Positions 3,929 to 21,210 of a stretch of 21,394 bases of DNA are shown one piece after another (position 1 is the stretch's first letter; every line of letters begins with the position of its first letter). This DNA comes from Bradyrhizobium sp. CCH5-F6. Lineage in GTDB: Bacteria; Pseudomonadota; Alphaproteobacteria; Rhizobiales; Xanthobacteraceae. The stretch is from positions 1 to 21,394 of the forward strand of contig NZ_LSIC01000156.1 of NCBI RefSeq assembly GCF_001556045.1. Direction: 5' to 3'. Both the position numbers and the translations under genes were made by a program. The notes below the pieces were generated by a model. It was not told the DNA's origin. It saw only the letters and a list, made by a program, of their open reading frames with translations, and did no database searches.

Positions 3929-5151
3929 CAGTATCGCAGCAAGGCTTGTAACGGCGCCTTTTCAGAAAGGGCTGAACGGCACGTCGGATCGCGGACGAAG
4001 GCGATCTGTGCCCTGCGCTCAAGCGCCTGCTGGAGCGCCGCCTCGACGAGGTCATCGACCACCTCGAGATCGGCCTCGCCGCAAACCGGACACTTGGACA
4101 GCTGTGCGTCTTCGAACAAGCTCCCGCAGTGCCGGCATTGCGTGCCAGCAGCAGCGTAGCTGTCGTCAACGACCAAGGTGAGCACTCGTCCCTCGCTCAG
4201 GCAGTCTAAGGTCTCCTGCGTTCCCGTTGAGACCGCCACTGAATTCGCCTCGCGCAACCGATCGATCAGCTCATGCTCCTCGCAGACTTTGAGCTGATCT
4301 TGTATCGCGGCGGCCGCAGCACCGATTTCGGCGGGTGACGCGTGTACGCTGGTCTCGAACGCCGCATGGCGGGAGAGAGAGTCCTTGGACAGATGATCGC
4401 GGAAGGCCGCGCTCATGTCTGGAGGCGCGCAGAGCAGGATGTGGGACGTTTCGAACTCTCGGCCGATAATTTCGGCCATCGAAGCTAAGGCCTTTGCCTC
4501 GTCCTTCATCAGTTGCGTCGCCAGCGCATCGCGGCGGTCGCGCGGAACACGATCCGTCAGCATGCCCCGAATGCGCCGCCCCTTGACGCGGTAGATTTCT
4601 TCGATGTTGCCGAGATGGCTGACGAAAAAGCGGCTCTGCTCCCGCGACAGGAGCGCAAGTAGCGCTCGGTCGCTGCGGCCCCAGGTGCGCAATAGAGGTC
4701 GCAGGTGAGGCCGGGGTCCGATCTGGATACTGTCCGGCAGCGGAATCGGCAGGGCGATCTGCCGCCAGATCCCACGTTCGCGGCAAGCGAAGAATGCAGC
4801 GCCACGACCAAGTCCGGGCAATTGCTGATCCAGCGCGGCCTGGATATCCTGGATGTCGGCCTTAACGCTGGCTCGAGCGGCCTGATCAGCCGTCTGAGAG
4901 ATCCGGTGGCTAAGGGCTGACAGGGCCGACTGCCAAGCGCGCCCGACGCGCCGTTCTGGGGTCAGCTGTAGATAGAGGCTGACGATGGGCGGGCCGGCCG
5001 TGTCGAGCGCAGCGAGAGCGCGGAAATGCTCGGGGGAGAGCAAGCGATAGGGGTGCTCTTGCATCCGCGTGCGAACGTTCTGGACGATCCGGTCCCGCAA
5101 CTCGGGAGTGAGTGCATGATGCGCGTCAATGGTGAGGCTTAGAGCCTTCAT
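3928..5151 (-). CDS. Bacterial archaeo-eukaryotic release-factor-like protein (baeRF family, eRF1/Vms1-related)
   Basis: This 407-aa protein has the order seen in bacterial eRF1-like proteins: an N-terminal domain with PPIVSLYLQLTPERR (about residues 54-68), a middle RNase H-like domain (RALLALLSREQSRFFVSHLGNIEEIY, about 162-187), and a C-terminal L7Ae-like domain ending in a four-cysteine zinc site (C339, C342, C354, C357 in CRHCG and CPVCG). No GGQ peptide-release tripeptide is present in the middle-domain loop, so classical peptidyl-tRNA hydrolysis is not expected. Relatives are proposed to act on stalled ribosomes in stress. The start ATG (5151) lies inside the end of the sigma-factor gene (26-nt overlap) with GAGGAGG seven bases upstream, which argues for coupled translation. 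Family assignment rests on remembered motifs. The precise role is unknown. Confidence 0.8.
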   Translation of the reverse strand: MKALSLTIDAHHALTPELRDRIVQNVRTRMQEHPYRLLSPEHFRALAALDTAGPPIVSLYLQLTPERRVGRAWQSALSALSHRISQTADQAARASVKADIQDIQAALDQQLPGLGRGAAFFACRERGIWRQIALPIPLPDSIQIGPRPHLRPLLRTWGRSDRALLALLSREQSRFFVSHLGNIEEIYRVKGRRIRGMLTDRVPRDRRDALATQLMKDEAKALASMAEIIGREFETSHILLCAPPDMSAAFRDHLSKDSLSRHAAFETSVHASPAEIGAAAAAIQDQLKVCEEHELIDRLREANSVAVSTGTQETLDCLSEGRVLTLVVDDSYAAAGTQCRHCGSLFEDAQLSKCPVCGEADLEVVDDLVEAALQQALERRAQIAFVRDPTCRSALSEKAPLQALLRY

Positions 5152-5839
5152 TTCCGGTCCTCCTCATCAATTCAGCCAAGCGGGCTTGCCCCTCTCGCCA
5201 GAACTGCGACAGACTTTCCCGCGAAATTCGCAAGCCGACGGCGATCTCAGTAAAGCTGAGACGATGGACATGCCGCATGACCAGTACCTGGCGGGCGACC
5301 GGCGAAAGGCCGGGAACGTTCTCCTCGAATACCTCGTCAGCAGGCTGCAAATGGGCCTCCGCGGCCAATACATCCTCCCAGCGCACCACCTCGTCCGGTT
5401 GGAACCACTCATAGAAGCCCTCGTCATCATCGTAGATGGGAGGCTCGGGCGCACGCGCCTCCAACGACACGGAAATGAGGCGCCGCAGCAATTGCTCCTG
5501 CCGCACGATGCGCATCAGCACGCGAAACTGCAGTCCCAATAGCCACGCGCGAAGGCTGAGGAGCTGCGGCCGGGTTCGGCGATCGCGCCAGGCTCGCAGC
5601 AGGGTCTCGCCAACGAGTTCCTCCCCGGAGAGATCGCCCTCTCGAAGGTCACCGACAGCGACGTGGTATCTGATGTCTCGCTGACCGGCCGCAAACAGCT
5701 CGTCCAGGTGCGGGGTAACCAAGTCGTGGAAGGCCTCCCGATCGCCATCAAGGCAGCGCGCCCAGGCTGGGCTGCTCTCGGAACCATGTGTCGACGGCGC
5801 TCCCGGTGCATCGGCGTTCGAGACATCACTGGGTGTCAT
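5126..5839 (-). CDS. ECF-like sigma-70 family RNA polymerase sigma factor
   Basis: This 237-aa protein has sigma region 2-like helices around residues 31-112 (GDREAFHDLVTPHLDELF, then LVGETLLRAWRDR and LRAWLLGLQFRVLMRI) and region 4 at about 178-226 (LSPVARQVLVMRHVHRLSFT followed by EIAVGLRISRESL), the helix-turn-helix that reads the -35 element. The middle segment (130-175) is unusually acidic and aromatic (YDDDEGFYEWFQPDE) and may be a linker specific to this group. No anti-sigma factor gene is adjacent, unlike most ECF factors. The ATG at 5839 has GGGAGG six bases upstream. The gene lies 24 nt after the glycosyltransferase gene and overlaps the eRF1-like gene, so the three are very likely one transcript. 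Its own promoter targets are unknown. Confidence 0.85.
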   Translation of the reverse strand: MTPSDVSNADAPGAPSTHGSESSPAWARCLDGDREAFHDLVTPHLDELFAAGQRDIRYHVAVGDLREGDLSGEELVGETLLRAWRDRRTRPQLLSLRAWLLGLQFRVLMRIVRQEQLLRRLISVSLEARAPEPPIYDDDEGFYEWFQPDEVVRWEDVLAAEAHLQPADEVFEENVPGLSPVARQVLVMRHVHRLSFTEIAVGLRISRESLSQFWREGQARLAELMRRTGNEGSKPHH

Positions 5840-7466: not shown

Positions 7467-7555
7467 GCCGGGCGCCTGAGAGAGGGCCCGGTTGGCGGGC
7501 GCCCGGCAGGTGTCCGAAGCGCCCAGAACCATGTTGCTCAATGGAGGATATGGCT
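7467..7555 (+). promoter_or_regulatory. ROSE-type RNA thermometer in the hsp20 leader
   Basis: Two stems are visible. The upper one is GCCGGGCGCC (7467-7476) with GGCGCCCGGC (7498-7507). The lower one (7529-7553) pairs CCATGTT(G)CTC with GAGGATATGG, hiding the Shine-Dalgarno GGAGGA (7543-7548). The TTGCT motif with a G left opposite the Shine-Dalgarno strand is the known ROSE signature, and the AUG follows seven bases after GGAGGA. Heating should melt the lower stem and allow translation. The same TTGCTC-N3-GGAGGA-N7-ATG layout recurs at 16590-16611 and 21064-21085. Confidence 0.85.
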
Positions 7556-8011
7556 ATGACCACGCTTGATCTTGCTCCCCTGTGGCGATCGACCGTTGGT
7601 TTCGATCGTCTGTTCGACCTTCTCGAGAACTCCGGCCAATGGACCGGCGGGGACAACTATCCCCCCTACGACATCGAACGCGTCGGCGAGGACCATTATC
7701 AAATCTCGCTGGCTCTTGCGGGCTTCACGCCCGACGAGGTCTCGATCACGGCTGAGCAGAACACGCTGACCGTTGAGGGTCGCAAGGCCGAGAAGGGCGG
7801 CCGCCAGTATCTCTATCACGGCATCTCTTCACGCCCGTTCCGGCGAATCTTCAGTCTGGCCGAGTACGTGCAGGTGAAGGGCGCCTCATTCGAGAACGGT
7901 ATGCTCAAGATCGATCTGGTGCGGGAGATCCCGGACGCGATGAAACCGCGCCAGATTGCGATCACCACAGGTGGCGACCACCAACCAGTTGAGAACAAGC
8001 AAGCGGCCTAA
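7556..8011 (+). CDS. Small heat-shock protein Hsp20, HspA-like class A
   Basis: This 151-aa alpha-crystallin chaperone should bind unfolding proteins in the cytoplasm without ATP and hand them to DnaK/GroEL. N-terminus MTTLDLAPLWRSTVGFDRLF is typical of rhizobial class A proteins. The alpha-crystallin domain spans about residues 38-127 and includes YLYHGISSRPFRRIFSL and the A-x4-G-x-L signature in ASFENGMLKIDL (110-121). The C-terminal I-x-I anchor is IAI (134-136). Three ATGs occur at 7541, 7550 and 7556. The last is chosen because GGAGGA lies seven bases before it, the same as in the other ROSE-controlled genes. The class B Hsp20 gene follows 81 nt downstream, presumably on the same message, allowing mixed expression of two chaperone classes. 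Confidence 0.95.
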   Translation: MTTLDLAPLWRSTVGFDRLFDLLENSGQWTGGDNYPPYDIERVGEDHYQISLALAGFTPDEVSITAEQNTLTVEGRKAEKGGRQYLYHGISSRPFRRIFSLAEYVQVKGASFENGMLKIDLVREIPDAMKPRQIAITTGGDHQPVENKQAA

Positions 8012-8903: not shown

Positions 8904-10592
8904 TTAAGCGGAGTGTTGGCTGCTCTTTGCGCCAAGCACCGTTTCTAGTTTCGCTGAGAGCTCTCTTGATGAGAACGGCTTGCTTAGCAACATACTGCAG
9001 TTGATGCGCTTGCCGGTCTCTTCTATGAGATCTGCATAGCCGCTGCAGTACACCACAGGAAGCCCGGGCTGCTTTCGCTGAAGTTCGAGTCCTACGTCGA
9101 TCCCCGAGGCGCCTGGCATCGCGAGATCGATGATCGCCAAATCGATAGTTTGATCGGAAAGGGTTGCCAGCGCAGCATCCAAACTGTCGGCCGCGATAGC
9201 TTGGTATCCAAGATCGTCCAGCATGCTCCGCGTCGTTTCGAGCACGCCGGCATCATCGTCCACAACGAGGATGTGCTCCCTTGCTCCGGCGCCTGGAGTG
9301 TCCGGTTGGCGCTCGTCGCTTCCGACCACAATGTCGGTCGATCGTGGCAAGAGGATTCGCACCACCGTTCCCCGACCAACTTCGCTTTCGATTTTGGCTG
9401 TCCCGCCGGACTGGCGGGCAAACCCGTAGACCTGCGATAATCCAAGCCCCGTTCCCTTGCCGGGCTCTTTGGTGGTGAAGAATGGATCGAAAGCCCGCGC
9501 CAGAACATCCGGAGTCATTCCGGTGCCAGTGTCTTTCACTGCAATTGAGACATACTCACCTGGCCTGAGGTCGGTCCGCAGATCTTCCGGGACACCGTGG
9601 AGAACGCTTGTTTCGATCGTAAGGAGACCACCCTCCGGCATTGCGTCTCGCGCATTGATCGCAAGATTGAGCAACATTAGCTCAAGTTGGGTCGAATCGA
9701 CCAGTGCAGGCCAAAGATCTTTTTGCGTGACAACGTCAACCCGTATGGAGACGCCAAGGGTTCTGGACAGCATCTCTGCGACCGTATCCACGAGCTGGTT
9801 GACGTCGACGGGCTCCGGCGCGAGACGCTGCTTGCGGGAGAATGAAAGCAACTGTCCTACGAGCTTGGCTCCGCGCTGCGCGCCGTGCATGGCGTTGCGG
9901 ACATATCGCTGAGTGCGCTCGTCCTCGACTCGCCGAGCAATCAGCTCGAGATTGCCGATGATAGCCATCAGAAGATTGTTGAAATCGTGAGCGATGCCAC
10001 CGGTGAGTTGCCCCACAGCCTCCATTTTCTGGGCCTGACGCAACGCCACTTCGGTACGCTCTCGTTCCACCATCTCCTCTCTCAGGCGCTTGTTCGCTTC
10101 GGAGAGCTGCGCGGTCCGCTCTTCCACGCGCCGCTCCAGCGTGTCAGCCATCCGCTTCAACTCCACTAGGTACTTTTCGGCCTGTCGCTGGCGCCTGCGG
10201 CCTCGCACGGCCGCCAATACCGCGCTCCTGAGAGAGGTCGCAGCCAATGGACGCTCAAGGACCGTCACATGACCAAGCAGTTCAATCTGCTCCGTAAGAG
10301 CCGCGCTATTTTGGCCAGTCCTCAGTGTCAGCAACACGAAAGGAAAATCCGACCAAGGTGGCTGATTGGCGATCCAATGGGCCAATGCGCCACGATACTC
10401 GTGGACCAGCGCTTCCTCAGCAATGACCGCCGCGGCGGCATCATTCAGGTTGGCCACCAACTCTGAAAGGCTCGATTGCTGCAACGCATGGATGCCAACG
10501 TCACGCAGCGCCGAGCAGACGACGCGGGCATCACGACCGAACGGCGCCAACACCAGCACCGGCCCATCCGGGCCTGCATCATTATTGTCCAT
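8904..10592 (-). CDS. Hybrid sensor histidine kinase / response regulator
   Basis: This 562-aa cytoplasmic protein has no membrane segments. Residues 10-130 look like a degenerate receiver-type domain (VLVLAPFGRDARVVCSALRD) without the usual acidic pocket. A coiled coil follows (about 135-185, including TLERRVEERTAQLSEANKRL), then the phospho-acceptor H-box GQLTGGIAHDFNNLL with H202, the N-box LNLAINARDAMPEGG, G1 DTGTGM, the F-box FDPFFTT and G2 GKGTGLGLS. The C-terminal receiver domain has D445/D446, phospho-acceptor D489 (IIDLAMPG) and K538. The ATG at 10592 has GAGGAGC before it and lies inside the end of the KaiC-like gene (11-nt overlap), so the two are coupled. No HPt or DNA-binding output partner is nearby, so phosphate probably flows to a protein encoded elsewhere. 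Confidence 0.92.
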   Translation of the reverse strand: MDNNDAGPDGPVLVLAPFGRDARVVCSALRDVGIHALQQSSLSELVANLNDAAAAVIAEEALVHEYRGALAHWIANQPPWSDFPFVLLTLRTGQNSAALTEQIELLGHVTVLERPLAATSLRSAVLAAVRGRRRQRQAEKYLVELKRMADTLERRVEERTAQLSEANKRLREEMVERERTEVALRQAQKMEAVGQLTGGIAHDFNNLLMAIIGNLELIARRVEDERTQRYVRNAMHGAQRGAKLVGQLLSFSRKQRLAPEPVDVNQLVDTVAEMLSRTLGVSIRVDVVTQKDLWPALVDSTQLELMLLNLAINARDAMPEGGLLTIETSVLHGVPEDLRTDLRPGEYVSIAVKDTGTGMTPDVLARAFDPFFTTKEPGKGTGLGLSQVYGFARQSGGTAKIESEVGRGTVVRILLPRSTDIVVGSDERQPDTPGAGAREHILVVDDDAGVLETTRSMLDDLGYQAIAADSLDAALATLSDQTIDLAIIDLAMPGASGIDVGLELQRKQPGLPVVYCSGYADLIEETGKRINCSMLLSKPFSSRELSAKLETVLGAKSSQHSA

Positions 10593-12093
10593 TGCTCCTC
10601 GTCGCAAGGAGCGCGCCGTGCTGGCCTGTATAGACGGGAGAACCGGATAAGACGCCTTGGAACTCCGCCAAAGGAGGACCGACACGGATTCCGCGGCTAT
10701 CGAGCCGGTACTCTCGGATTTCGTCCTCGTGGCGCCCGGTGCGCTTCTTTAGCACCGAGATCGCCCGCCGGATTCTTCCGGCGGCCTCGAAGAAGCGCAA
10801 CAGCAGGACCGTATCGCTCAGGTAGGTGAGATCGACGCTTGACTGCATCGAACCGACGAGTCCGTGCTGCGCAAGAGTCAAGATCGTCACGACTCCGCGG
10901 TGATTGAGATAGGTCAGCATTTCGTGCATCAGCAGCAGCATGAACTGCTCGGCGGGCATCGCGTTCTGATAGCCGCTCAAGCTGTCCAGGACGACAACTC
11001 GTACATTGTCGGTCTCGACGTGCCGGCGCACCATTCCGGTTAGCTCCCCGGGAGAAAGCTCTGCGGGGTCGACCTGCTCTAGCAGGAGCTGTCCTGATGC
11101 GATCGCCCGATCCAAATGCCAGCCCATTCCGGCCGAGCGCTTCATCAGGATCGCCTTGGTCTCGTCAAAGGTCACGAAGAGAGCGCGTTCTCCCTGGCCA
11201 AGCGCCGCGATGACGAATTGCATGGCAATGGACGATTTGCCTGAACCGGACGGGCCGATCAGCAGAGTACTGGTGCCGCGGTCGAGCCCGCTTCCCAGCA
11301 GCTGATCGAGCTCGCCGATGCCACTCAGGAGCGGCTCCGCCGCCGGCGCGCCATCCACGTGCTCGGACGCAATCAGGCGTGGAAACAGGACCAGTCCGCC
11401 CTTGCGAATGACGAAATCATGGAAGCCGCCCCGGAAGCTGCGCCCACGCATCTTGAAAATGCGGAGCCTGCGGCGCTCAGCACCATATTGCAGCGCGTTA
11501 TGTTCGAGCCGGACCACGCCGTGAGCGAGGCTGTGCAGATTGAGATCATCGGCGTCGTCAGTCAGATCGTCCAGAAGAAGCGCGGTGCATCCCTCCTGGG
11601 CAAAGAAATGCTTCAAGGCAATGACCTGCCTGCGATACCGCAGCGGATTTTGCGCCAGAAGCCGGATTTCGGAGAGACTGTCAAAAACCACGCGGGAAGG
11701 AGCCACCCGCTTAACCTCATCGAAGGTCATCTTCGTGGTTTCCCCGAGCTCAAGGTCGGACGCGTAAACCACTGTCTGCTGCTGCTTGGGGTCGAGGCTG
11801 AGCTCTGCGGGGATGAGCTCAAAGATCTCGATGCCCTCCAGATTCCAGCCGTGGGTTTCAGCCACTTGCCGTAGTTCGTCCTTGCTCTCGGAGAGCGTGA
11901 TGTAGAGACAGCGCTCCCCCCTCGAGGCTCCCTCTAGAAGGAATTGGAGGGCCAGCGTGGTCTTACCGGTTCCCGGCTGGCCTTCGATCAGATGCACGCG
12001 ATGCGAAGCGTATCCACCATCCAGGATGCCGTCAAAGCCGGCAATTCCCGTCGAGATCGCATGCGTCTTGGCGCTGTTTTCAGGGATGTTCAT
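10582..12093 (-). CDS. KaiC-like double-domain RecA-fold ATPase
   Basis: This 503-aa protein carries two tandem KaiC domains. CI has Walker A GQPGTGKTT (38-46), the glutamate-bearing segment TLSES (66-70) and Walker B RVVFDSL. CII has Walker A GPSGSGKSS (280-288), TFDE (308-311) and RVVVLDSL (365-372). Aligned to cyanobacterial KaiC, the CII phosphorylation pair Ser431/Thr432 falls on Thr423-Tyr424 here (DLTYLSDTV), so phospho-cycling may differ. No KaiA or KaiB gene is in the window; the partner instead is the overlapping hybrid kinase, a common arrangement for KaiC homologues outside cyanobacteria, where they are linked to stress and timing rather than to a full clock. The start at 12093 has CGGAAG upstream. 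The 292-nt region to the divergent marC holds both promoters but no recognisable operator. Confidence 0.92.
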   Translation of the reverse strand: MNIPENSAKTHAISTGIAGFDGILDGGYASHRVHLIEGQPGTGKTTLALQFLLEGASRGERCLYITLSESKDELRQVAETHGWNLEGIEIFELIPAELSLDPKQQQTVVYASDLELGETTKMTFDEVKRVAPSRVVFDSLSEIRLLAQNPLRYRRQVIALKHFFAQEGCTALLLDDLTDDADDLNLHSLAHGVVRLEHNALQYGAERRRLRIFKMRGRSFRGGFHDFVIRKGGLVLFPRLIASEHVDGAPAAEPLLSGIGELDQLLGSGLDRGTSTLLIGPSGSGKSSIAMQFVIAALGQGERALFVTFDETKAILMKRSAGMGWHLDRAIASGQLLLEQVDPAELSPGELTGMVRRHVETDNVRVVVLDSLSGYQNAMPAEQFMLLLMHEMLTYLNHRGVVTILTLAQHGLVGSMQSSVDLTYLSDTVLLLRFFEAAGRIRRAISVLKKRTGRHEDEIREYRLDSRGIRVGPPLAEFQGVLSGSPVYTGQHGALLATRSNGQ

Positions 12094-16130: not shown

Positions 16131-16589
16131 CTATGCTGCCTTCTTCTGCTCAATTTGAGACGAAGAGGCCTCTCCACTTCCGATCTGGATCTTCCGCGGT
16201 TTCATCGCTTCCGGAATTTCTCGAACGAGATCCACGATCAAAAGACCATCCTGGAAGGATGCCTGCTTCACCTGAACATAATCGGCGAGGCTGAAGACTC
16301 TCCGGAACGGTCGCGCCGGGATACCGTGGTACAGATACTCGCGCGCGGCACCATCAGACTTCTTGCCCTCGATCGTGAGAGCATTCTGCTCGGCCGTCAC
16401 TGAGATATCGTTGGCGCCGAAGCCGGCCACGGCCAGCGTGATTCGATAATGATCCTCACCGGACCGCTCGATGTTGTACGGAGGATAGTTGTCCTCTGTC
16501 GGCTGGCGCGACATGCCCTCGACAAGGTCAGCCAGATGATCGAAGCCGACGGTGGTGCGCCAGAGTGGCGTAAAATCAAGTGTCCTCAT
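16131..16589 (-). CDS. Small heat-shock protein Hsp20, HspA-like class A (second copy)
   Basis: This 152-aa protein is a clear paralogue of the Hsp20 at 7556: MRTLDFTPLWRTTVGFDHLA at the N-terminus, NYPPYNIERSGEDHYRITLA, YLYHGIPARPFRRVFSLADY and the ASFQDGLLIVDL signature, with the I-x-I anchor IQI near residue 136. The loop and tail differ, so it is not a recent duplication. A TTG two codons upstream opens the frame earlier, but the ATG at 16589 is seven bases after GGAGGA, as in the other ROSE genes. It heads an operon with the 111-aa protein, the 42-aa peptide and degP. Confidence 0.95.
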   Translation of the reverse strand: MRTLDFTPLWRTTVGFDHLADLVEGMSRQPTEDNYPPYNIERSGEDHYRITLAVAGFGANDISVTAEQNALTIEGKKSDGAAREYLYHGIPARPFRRVFSLADYVQVKQASFQDGLLIVDLVREIPEAMKPRKIQIGSGEASSSQIEQKKAA

Positions 16590-16660
16590 AGCCAAGTCCT
16601 CCTAAGAGCAATATGGATACGAAGCTAGGCAGGACGGGAGTTTCGGTTGGGTCGAATACC
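16590..16660 (-). promoter_or_regulatory. ROSE-type RNA thermometer of the hsp20-degP operon
   Basis: In the minus-strand RNA, CCATATTGCTC (16605-16615) faces GAGGACTTGG (16592-16601) across the loop TTAG. CTC pairs with GAG, one G is left out, and the outer CC pairs with GG, covering the Shine-Dalgarno AGGAGGA (16597-16603). TTGCTC-N3-GGAGGA-N7-ATG is identical in layout to the other two elements. The 5' limit is approximate. A TTGAAC at 16749-16754 could be the -35 of its promoter, but no convincing -10 is seen. Confidence 0.82.
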
Positions 16661-16794
16661 TCCGGTCCAGCGTCTTGTGCCGAGCCCGGCCTGGCGCTCG
16701 ACACACCGCAGTCGCGGTCGAGAAACGAACTAGAACTGACATGCGCGAGTTCAAGAGGCCATGCGCACTTTTTCCGCGGAAGCTCGCTCAGTGA

Positions 16795-20036: not shown

Positions 20037-20930
20037 TTATTGTGCGTTCGCTGAAGCCGCCCGAAGATCGGGCAGGCGTGCGCACATCATCGTCTTTATG
20101 CGCTTCAAGGCACGCTGCTCGATCTGGCGAACTCGCTCACGAGAGATCCCAAACGTTATAGCAAGATCGTCCAGTGTTCTTTGTTCCTCTGCCATATAGC
20201 GAGCTTCGACGATGGTGCGTTCTCGCGCTGAAAGCGCGCTCAAGGCTTCGGACAGTGCGGCCTTCCGCCGTTCACGCTCTCCGGTCTCCACCAGCAGGGT
20301 TTCAGGATCAGGAGAGGAGTCGGCGAGTCTGTCCTGCCATTGTTCACCTTCTTCGTCGCTAAGCTGAACGTTCAGCGTCATGTCGCCGCGGATCCGCCCG
20401 TTCATCTCGACGACATCGGCTTCCTTGACCTGAAGTTGCTCAGAGATCTGTTTGACCTGTTCAGCCGAAAGCTCCCCTTCGTCCGGCGCACCCAGGCGCG
20501 CCTTCAACTTTCGAAGATTGAAGAACAGCTTTTTTTGTGCGGCCGTCGTGCCGAGCTTCACAAGTGACCAGGACCGCAGGACGAATTCCTGTACGGACGC
20601 TTTGATCCACCACGTGGCGTAAGTGGCGAGGCGGAATCCCTTTTCAGGATCAAACCGCTTGACGGCCAGCATCAATCCGACATTGGCTTCCGAGATCAGG
20701 TCGGCAATCGGCAAACCGTAGCGCCGATATTTCAGCGCGATCTTGGCGGCGAGCCGTAGATGGCTCGTTACCAAGCGGTAGGCAGCTTCGCGATCGCCAC
20801 AATGTCGAAGACGTCTCGCGTACATTGCTTCTTCGGACGCCTCGAGCATCGGGAAGCTACGGATCTGTTGCAGATACCGGGATAACCCGGCTTCCGAATG
20901 GATGGCCGGGAGGGCTGAGGCAATTGACAT
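20037..20930 (-). CDS. rpoH: Heat-shock sigma factor RpoH (sigma-32)
   Basis: This 297-aa protein has region 2 with LRLAAKIALKYRRYGLPIAD and KRFDPEKGFRLATYATWWIK (91-110), the RpoH box QKKLFFNLR (132-140), which marks heat-shock sigma factors and their control by chaperones and proteases, and region 4 with ISRERVRQIEQRALKRIK (262-279) for -35 recognition. It directs RNA polymerase to heat-shock promoters, presumably including those in this window. The ATG at 20930 has AAGGAGGG about six bases upstream; an earlier in-frame start would run through the leader ORF. The 39-codon leader ORF ends 13 nt before this ATG and begins at a ROSE thermometer, so RpoH synthesis is likely temperature-controlled through it. 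Confidence 0.97.
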   Translation of the reverse strand: MSIASALPAIHSEAGLSRYLQQIRSFPMLEASEEAMYARRLRHCGDREAAYRLVTSHLRLAAKIALKYRRYGLPIADLISEANVGLMLAVKRFDPEKGFRLATYATWWIKASVQEFVLRSWSLVKLGTTAAQKKLFFNLRKLKARLGAPDEGELSAEQVKQISEQLQVKEADVVEMNGRIRGDMTLNVQLSDEEGEQWQDRLADSSPDPETLLVETGERERRKAALSEALSALSARERTIVEARYMAEEQRTLDDLAITFGISRERVRQIEQRALKRIKTMMCARLPDLRAASANAQ

Positions 20931-20943
20931 GACTTGCCCTCCT

Positions 20944-21063
20944 TCAAACGCCAGAGCCGTTCTGAAGTTGGAACGGGCTGCCCGAGAGACGATGCGACCG
21001 CGCGAGCCCACCAAGGTGAGTCAGACTGGTGGACGGCAAAGTGAAGAGACGGGTGGCTTTCAT
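20944..21063 (-). CDS. 39-aa leader ORF between ROSE thermometer and rpoH
   Basis: The frame reads MKATRLFTLPSTSLTHLGGL, then ARSHRLSGSPFQLQNGSGV, ending with TGA 13 nt before the rpoH ATG. Its ATG is seven bases after the ROSE Shine-Dalgarno GGAGGA, exactly where hsp20 starts in the other two ROSE units. From memory, rpoH1 of B. japonicum is transcribed behind ROSE and hspA; here hspA is missing and this ORF stands in its place. It may be a shrunken remnant of hspA (no clear similarity remains) or a functional leader whose translation opens the rpoH ribosome-binding site. Confidence 0.6.
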   Translation of the reverse strand: MKATRLFTLPSTSLTHLGGLARSHRLSGSPFQLQNGSGV

Positions 21064-21139
21064 ATCCAAATCCTCCATAGAGCAAAATGGTACGAACCGC
21101 CGCGTTGCTTGGCTTAGCTGGGCCCAGAAGGCGCCCAGC
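21064..21139 (-). promoter_or_regulatory. ROSE-type RNA thermometer upstream of leader ORF and rpoH
   Basis: In the RNA, CCATTTTGCTC (21080-21090) faces GAGGATTTGG (21066-21075) with loop TATG. CTC/GAG, the skipped G and the outer CC/GG pair as in the other two elements, masking GGAGGA (21071-21076). A second stem, GCTGGGC with GCCCAGC (21117-21139), lies upstream, typical of the multi-hairpin ROSE layout. The promoter is expected between 21140 and 21210 but no convincing -35/-10 is seen. Confidence 0.82.
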
Positions 21140-21210
21140 GACACTCAGGCCGGCGGCGCCGAAAGAACCGCGAAACCAAGGGGTTGTTCCTCCCTTTCGC
21201 GCCTATTAGT

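Follow-up and report, generated by a model that had tools for sequence, protein, structure and literature searches.

In the stretch of DNA analysed here (the window: 21,394 nucleotides of contig NZ_LSIC01000156.1 from Bradyrhizobium sp. CCH5-F6), a ROSE RNA thermometer upstream of the heat-shock sigma factor gene rpoH supplies the Shine-Dalgarno (SD) sequence and the start codon of a short leader open reading frame (ORF), which ends on the start region of rpoH. The same order recurs throughout a clade of relatives, in one member of which the leader has been deleted and the thermometer is fused to rpoH; across the clade the frame and the stop of the leader are held while the encoded peptide drifts. 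From this pattern in the sequences we consider it probable (about 0.7) that the leader acts as a translational relay, driven by the thermometer and indifferent to its own sequence, which would couple the opening of the ROSE element to the translation of rpoH.

All features of the locus lie on the reverse strand. The ROSE element (positions 21057–21138) scores 52.1 bits against the Rfam model RF00435 (gathering score 45); both in the RF00435 alignment and in our folds its 3' hairpin pairs the leader SD, GGAGGA, imperfectly with a TTGCTC side just 5' of the start codon. The predicted openness of this SD shows a small rise, from 0.24 at 25 °C to 0.35 at 45 °C, and by analogy with the characterised ROSE family the hairpin presumably melts at this site. 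The leader (39 codons; 20944–21063, stop included; MKATRLFTLPSTSLTHLGGLARSHRLSGSPFQLQNGSGV) runs from the ATG at 21063 to the TGA at 20946–20944, and had no protein family match in searches with family models. Directly 3' of this TGA lies the rpoH SD, AGGAGGG (20937–20943), which is near-perfect (anti-SD duplex of −10.3 kcal/mol); the two share a single base, so that the first A of AAGGAGGG doubles as the final letter of the stop codon. Exactly 13 nt separate the TGA from the rpoH ATG at 20930. The rpoH gene (20037–20930) encodes a sigma-32 factor of 297 aa, which scores above the cut-offs of the equivalog model TIGR02392 (343.3 bits; cut-off 323.1) and of NF005143 (356.5; cut-off 241). Family score and coordinates thus confirm what an earlier note on this DNA had read from the sequence, namely that the ROSE SD and ATG serve a 39-codon ORF ending 13 nt 5' of the rpoH ATG.

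What follows this thermometer is therefore the leader ORF and rpoH, and not the small heat-shock protein (sHSP) gene that is the usual, though not the defining, neighbour of a ROSE element. The note was also right about the other two ROSE units of the window, where an sHSP gene begins at this point: the second ROSE (16583–16701, reverse strand; RF00435 51.3 bits) precedes an hsp20 at 16131–16589 with its ATG at 16589, and the third (7468–7562, forward strand; 54 bits) an hsp20 at 7556–8011 with its ATG at 7556. The best NCBIfam matches of both hsp20 genes are IbpA and IbpB, below the cut-offs of those models. Elsewhere in the window, the reverse strand encodes a 237-aa protein (5126–5839) that weakly matches sigma-70 region 4 (23.5 bits, slightly short of the cut-off of 24.1) and, amid the heat-shock genes, a hybrid histidine kinase adjoining a double-domain KaiC-type ATPase (8904–12093).

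Relatives of the locus were collected in several ways. A contig scan of genomes gave, among its best 80 loci, four from Bradyrhizobium (L001–L004). A search of 265 genomes from the genus to which B. semiaridum belongs gave at least 54 rpoH loci at 60% identity or more, and all 54 were analysed: 30 as loci of the search, four of them at the same places as L001–L004, and 24 by place. L101, L107, L110 and L111 were dropped before the counts, as they are the same places as L004, L001, L003 and L002, respectively. Among the 54, 26 have a short leader, one is fused, 19 have a ROSE start codon that is the rpoH start, four have a ROSE-type hairpin followed by a longer ORF, and four are without ROSE before rpoH; in the latter four the Rfam scan found two ROSE matches, both at a divergent hsp20. 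With the window there are 27 loci of the order ROSE–leader–rpoH, with leader ORFs of 17 to 45 codons; L003, which has no leader, is absent from the leader counts. The rpoH copies of B. semiaridum (L001) and of strain sp. 164 (L002) carry, respectively, a frameshift near codon 40 and an in-gene TAG, either through decay of that copy or through sequencing errors.

In the rpoH protein tree (56 loci, with Tardiphaga L082, a single long branch, as the root) the 27 leader loci and the fused locus form one clade (bootstrap 99, SH-aLRT 93), the 19 direct ROSE–rpoH loci a separate one (93/78), and the long-leader and no-ROSE loci a third (100/100), which joins the leader clade weakly (82/63). Since the leader clade is supported and the fused locus is nested within it, the leader goes back to the origin of the clade, and the fused locus has lost it since. 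A second search, of 391 genomes from the family, gave 23 matching genomes, 20 of them already in the set; the new loci, L207–L209, have a 44-codon leader ending 2 nt 5' of rpoH. In L207 this ORF is intact, but neither a ROSE match nor the TTGCTC strand is present, and the ROSE seems to have been lost through rearrangement.

The Rfam scan for ROSE took in 24 leader loci (all but L094, L104 and L114) and found the element before rpoH in 21, with 33 to 53 bits. Seven of these are above the cut-off of 45; 17 of the 24 are below it, among them three without a match (L002, L109 and L113), in which the hairpin strand TTGCTC and the SD are visible in the sequence alone.

The behaviour of the leader in these relatives bears on whether its frame or its peptide is maintained. 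(L094, whose rpoH is identical to that of L093, was left out of the drift, simulation, gap, relic and temperature-fold analyses.) Among 11 leaders of 39 codons, the only length used for these ratios, dN/dS was 0.89 (0.93 without the ATG), compared with 0.55 and 0.83 in the two other frames of the same leaders; in 10 of them, with L104 also omitted, it was 0.98 (95% 0.63–1.67), against 0.11 for rpoH in 10 loci that do not include the frameshifted L001. Third codon positions are those that vary least, and the leader evolves faster than the rpoH DNA (tree length 2.13 vs 0.77). The peptides of clade B look unrelated, and so, with dN/dS in this range, we found neither a conserved peptide nor regulatory codons in the leaders. 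Frame 0 is nevertheless open in 26 of 26 loci, as compared with 17 of 26 for frame +2, while frame +1 is mostly shut by the ATGA of the start itself. When neutral drift was simulated at the fitted rate for the 14 closest loci, without L106, all leaders stayed open in 3.4–4.2% of the runs and all retained the stop in 1.8–3.0%, and the two together occurred in 0 of 500 runs for each of three starting sequences; with L106 added the corresponding values were 2.2%, 1.3% and 1 of 600. Gaps inside the aligned leaders are of 12 nt in L093, 6 nt in L103 and 12 nt in L105 (the last two possibly a single event), and of 33 nt in L002 as compared with L109, L113 and L114; the single-base gaps of L093, L001 and L002 fall 3' of the leader stop. 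The exception is L106, in which gaps of 4 and 1 nt have cost the frame and the ORF ends 10 nt inside rpoH. The earlier note had named a lack of conservation of the ORF in relatives as an outcome that would count against its idea; the ORF proved to be conserved, and the peptide not.

The placement of the stop is equally regular. In each of the 27 loci the leader stops somewhere from −14 to +10 relative to the rpoH ATG, and so close to the SD or start codon of the next gene, as in systems with translational coupling; no locus of the leader clade was excluded for an early stop. In L113, L114 and L001 the aligned rpoH start is 3, 3 and 1 nt off the ATG, and the ORF ends shift by as much, still within these limits. 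The shortest leader, of 17 codons in L115, has its TGA immediately 3' of the opening four bases of rpoH. The ROSE ATG lies 47 to 147 nt away from the rpoH ATG, and each of the three possible frames relative to rpoH occurs; hence the placement of the stop is not a fixed spacing inherited unchanged. When the corresponding stretch of the window was shuffled with dinucleotides preserved, an ORF end at −15 to +10 of the rpoH ATG arose in 1.8% of cases, or 3.5% with the SD bases held. Full shuffling of the sequence 5' of the rpoH ATG gave such an end in 1.7–7.3% of cases for 24 of the 27 loci, in 16% for L109 and in 73–82% for L115 and L106; as the loci share ancestry, the proportions must not be combined as if they were independent. 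When the last 13 bases were kept fixed, the proportion was 0.9–5.3% in the 15 loci of clade A other than L106, and at least 13% in L106 and all 11 loci of clade B (0.42–1.0 in L106, L108, L109, L112–L116 and L118; 0.26 in L117; 0.14 in L176 and L002), so that 12 of the 27 are unremarkable by this measure. These high values arise because the TGA belongs to the held SD region; strong evidence locus by locus therefore comes from clade A, and clade B contributes recurrence. Likewise, since the leader TGA overlaps the rpoH SD, retention of the stop is not independent of retention of the SD.

A natural fusion is found in B. agreste (L003), in which about 98 nt are deleted and both the leader and the rpoH SD are gone: the ROSE ATG, followed by four codons, runs straight into rpoH in frame (MKPGTMLLASWLP). 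This locus is nested in the leader clade with L109, L113 and L114 (98/96), and its structure is what one would expect if the only use of the leader were to pass ROSE control on to rpoH. ROSE also lies directly on the rpoH start codon in the 19 loci of the separate clade (L120, L121, L153–L155, L157, L160, L162–L172 and L174, the last with GTG). These 19 contrast with the statement of a 2014 review that ROSE is always associated with sHSP genes.

The long-leader sister group behaves differently. After a ROSE-type hairpin, L119 and L156 have an intact 75-codon ORF, while in L122 and L158 the frame is broken; the ends lie at −35, −40, −120 and −122 relative to rpoH, those of the intact two being 35–40 nt away. 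Rfam ROSE matches are present in L156 and L158 (35–38 bits), with none before rpoH in L119 and L122. The 75-codon products are basic with similar C-terminal ends and, in contrast to the short leaders, this ORF looks like a real small protein; that of L156 (75 aa) matched no family above its cut-off. As this group breaks the rule of stop placement, the tight coupling proposed here would be a trait of the 28-locus clade (with L207–L209), and not of all ROSE–rpoH loci.

We have also considered whether the rpoH SD is hidden by local structure. Its predicted probability of being unpaired averages 0.13 over the 27 loci, compared with 0.20 when synonymous codons are substituted and 0.15 when the upstream sequence is shuffled, and 21 of the 27 loci, which are not independent, are at or below the middle of their synonymous controls. 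In the window a predicted hairpin, GGAGGGC/GCCCUCC (20909–20942, reverse strand), shared with several close loci, would cover the SD and place the AUG in its loop, a suggestive feature with similar values in the controls. With the same SD, groEL is predicted open (0.90) and rpoH closed (0.14); hidden SDs are also predicted for several other genes of the window, and L176, folded in a longer context, has an rpoH SD that is predicted to be open (0.82). These models hint weakly at selection for hiding of the rpoH SD, but with the controls so close the hiding is possibly a by-product of GC-rich sequence, and we regard it as suggestive only. The predicted pairing hardly depends on temperature: openness goes from 0.20 at 30 °C to 0.24 at 42 °C in the window, and changes little in the 24 of 26 loci folded at the two temperatures (in the other two the motif used gave no SD), the largest shift being that of L113 (0.15 to 0.32). 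We have therefore rejected a second thermometer at the rpoH SD. The two-step relay of thermometer and leader proposed in the earlier note is accordingly supported as a relay, by the held frame and stop, the drifting peptide and the fusion of L003, and loses its second temperature step.

The relay might work as follows. At normal temperature the ROSE hairpin would cover the leader SD, leaving both leader and rpoH poorly translated. On heating the ROSE would open, and ribosomes would read the leader and halt at a stop codon in contact with the rpoH SD, or just inside rpoH. The terminating ribosomes might then release the rpoH SD from its local pairing for a fresh ribosome; or they might slide the short distance to the rpoH ATG and initiate again there, a route that would require no hairpin. 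In either case the peptide would have no role, and what would count is an open frame ending on the rpoH start region. Both the dependence of rpoH on translation of the leader and the coupling route used are what we infer. In more general terms, we lean towards the view that this is a regulatory design stable in its own right: the thermometer leaves the SD of its target untouched and reaches the heat-shock sigma factor by way of a "carrier" ORF, on which selection acts solely to keep it open and to place its end on the start region of the target; sequence, length and frame of the carrier would be free to drift, and the carrier could be deleted to give direct control.

Other interpretations of these loci are less probable. 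It could be that rpoH is translated independently from its own strong SD, with ROSE governing nothing more than an irrelevant short ORF; the near-perfect complementarity of that SD and a predicted pairing little beyond that of the controls are consistent with such independence, which we nonetheless find unlikely, as it leaves unexplained the held frame and stop, and also the fusion of L003 and the direct clade, both suggesting that ROSE control of rpoH itself matters. A little less likely still is an effect of opposite sign or of another kind, with terminating ribosomes occluding the rpoH SD so that heat would damp rpoH, or with the leader affecting mRNA decay or Rho polarity instead of initiation. 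A stop that touches the SD in most loci could occlude as well as couple, and polarity would likewise need only an open frame; for a brake, however, L003 and the 19 direct loci, which put ROSE directly over rpoH, would imply a reversal of sign to direct activation by heat.

Two readings of the leader as such are very improbable. The earlier note had also suggested that the leader is the remnant of an sHSP gene (hspA) that once stood between ROSE and rpoH. Such an order exists in Tardiphaga L082 and is said to exist in B. japonicum USDA 110, but the rpoH of L082 is only 55% identical and distant in the tree, the leader is a clade-wide trait, and the sequences give the suggestion no backing: a comparison of 8 of the 27 leaders with 40 of the 45 sHSP-like ORFs driven by ROSE showed no excess of protein similarity (P = 0.23–0.93), and at the DNA level P was 0.20–0.43 in 7 of the 8 leaders, the exception being L095 (P = 0.02). 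In none of the 54 loci did tblastn detect an hsp20 gene separating ROSE from rpoH, nor did an intermediate come up, and a search of the genus with the Tardiphaga rpoH gave matches in 250 of 265 genomes, the best 30 loci showing neither an hsp20 upstream of rpoH nor a ROSE pattern ahead of that gene. On the lack of excess similarity between the compared leaders and sHSP-like ORFs we have rejected descent from hspA. Least probable of all is that the leader peptide itself acts. The closest loci do share an MKAT or MKTT start and a central GG, and the peptides of L118, L208 and L209 are alike; against a functional peptide are the unrelated look of those of clade B, the absence of a family match for the leader of the window, the low variation at third positions and a dN/dS near 1, on which last ground it was rejected.

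Upstream of the ROSE of the window lies a candidate promoter, GGAAC-N16-GGTT(C) (21165–21190, reverse strand), which matches the EcfG consensus GGAAC-N16-CGTT in all but one base; a looser form of the pattern has 3 matches in the window, this being one, vs 0.79 expected. In the leader clade GGAAC-N15..18-[ACG]TTC is found in 25 of 28 loci (2% of shuffles), at a nearly constant position about 124–129 nt 5' of the ROSE start codon, and it is present in 6 of the 19 direct ROSE–rpoH loci; the strict CGTT form is found in 0 of the 28. In R. etli, according to PMC3892343, EcfG1 recognises the consensus GGAAC-N16-CGTT and drives rpoH2. As a sequence motif the EcfG-like candidate suggests a general-stress promoter for rpoH in the leader clade, which may thus combine such a promoter with a thermometer.

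These results can be seen in the light of known systems. The thermometer is of the same kind as the ROSE elements before sHSP genes (RF00435), with a score above the gathering value, an SD-hiding hairpin and the start codon in the same position, and differs in that this codon opens a short ORF adjoining a sigma-factor gene. Narberhaus reportedly described in 1996 a B. japonicum hspA-rpoH1 operon behind ROSE1, which would likewise place a ROSE-controlled first cistron upstream of rpoH; there, however, the first cistron is said to be a full sHSP gene, and here it is a drifting 39-codon ORF. ROSE-like elements before ABC transporter genes are reported in later papers (PMC11342760, PMC12857270). 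A parallel in design is E. coli iraD, where CsrA represses by way of translational coupling to the short ORF27, whose translation would open a hairpin over the iraD SD and whose stop overlaps the iraD start (PMC5574718). There the blocked SD of a short leader ORF, ending at the next start, controls a stress-sigma regulator, the block is the protein CsrA and coupling was proved; in the present locus an RNA thermometer would take the place of that protein, and coupling is presumed. In E. coli rpoH an RNA structure also provides heat-responsive synthesis of sigma-32, but the sensor spans the 5' UTR and the coding region of rpoH itself (PMC4166951), whereas here it is one ORF upstream. The order ROSE–short ORF–rpoH was not found among the open-licence papers searched, mostly as titles and beginnings of abstracts and partly among the best 20 of 22 to 64 matches.

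The leader clade provides an evolutionary series (relay, overlapping relay, fused, direct) in which rules of coupling can be tested. It is also a warning for annotation that a short ORF behind a thermometer should not be taken by default either for noise or for a peptide, and if the relay is real, others of its kind may go unnoticed wherever a thermometer precedes a seemingly meaningless short ORF. It would then be a clean natural example of selection on the translation of an ORF and not on what the ORF encodes, and would show how a master regulator of the heat-shock response can be given its temperature signal by a thermometer that lies one ORF upstream.
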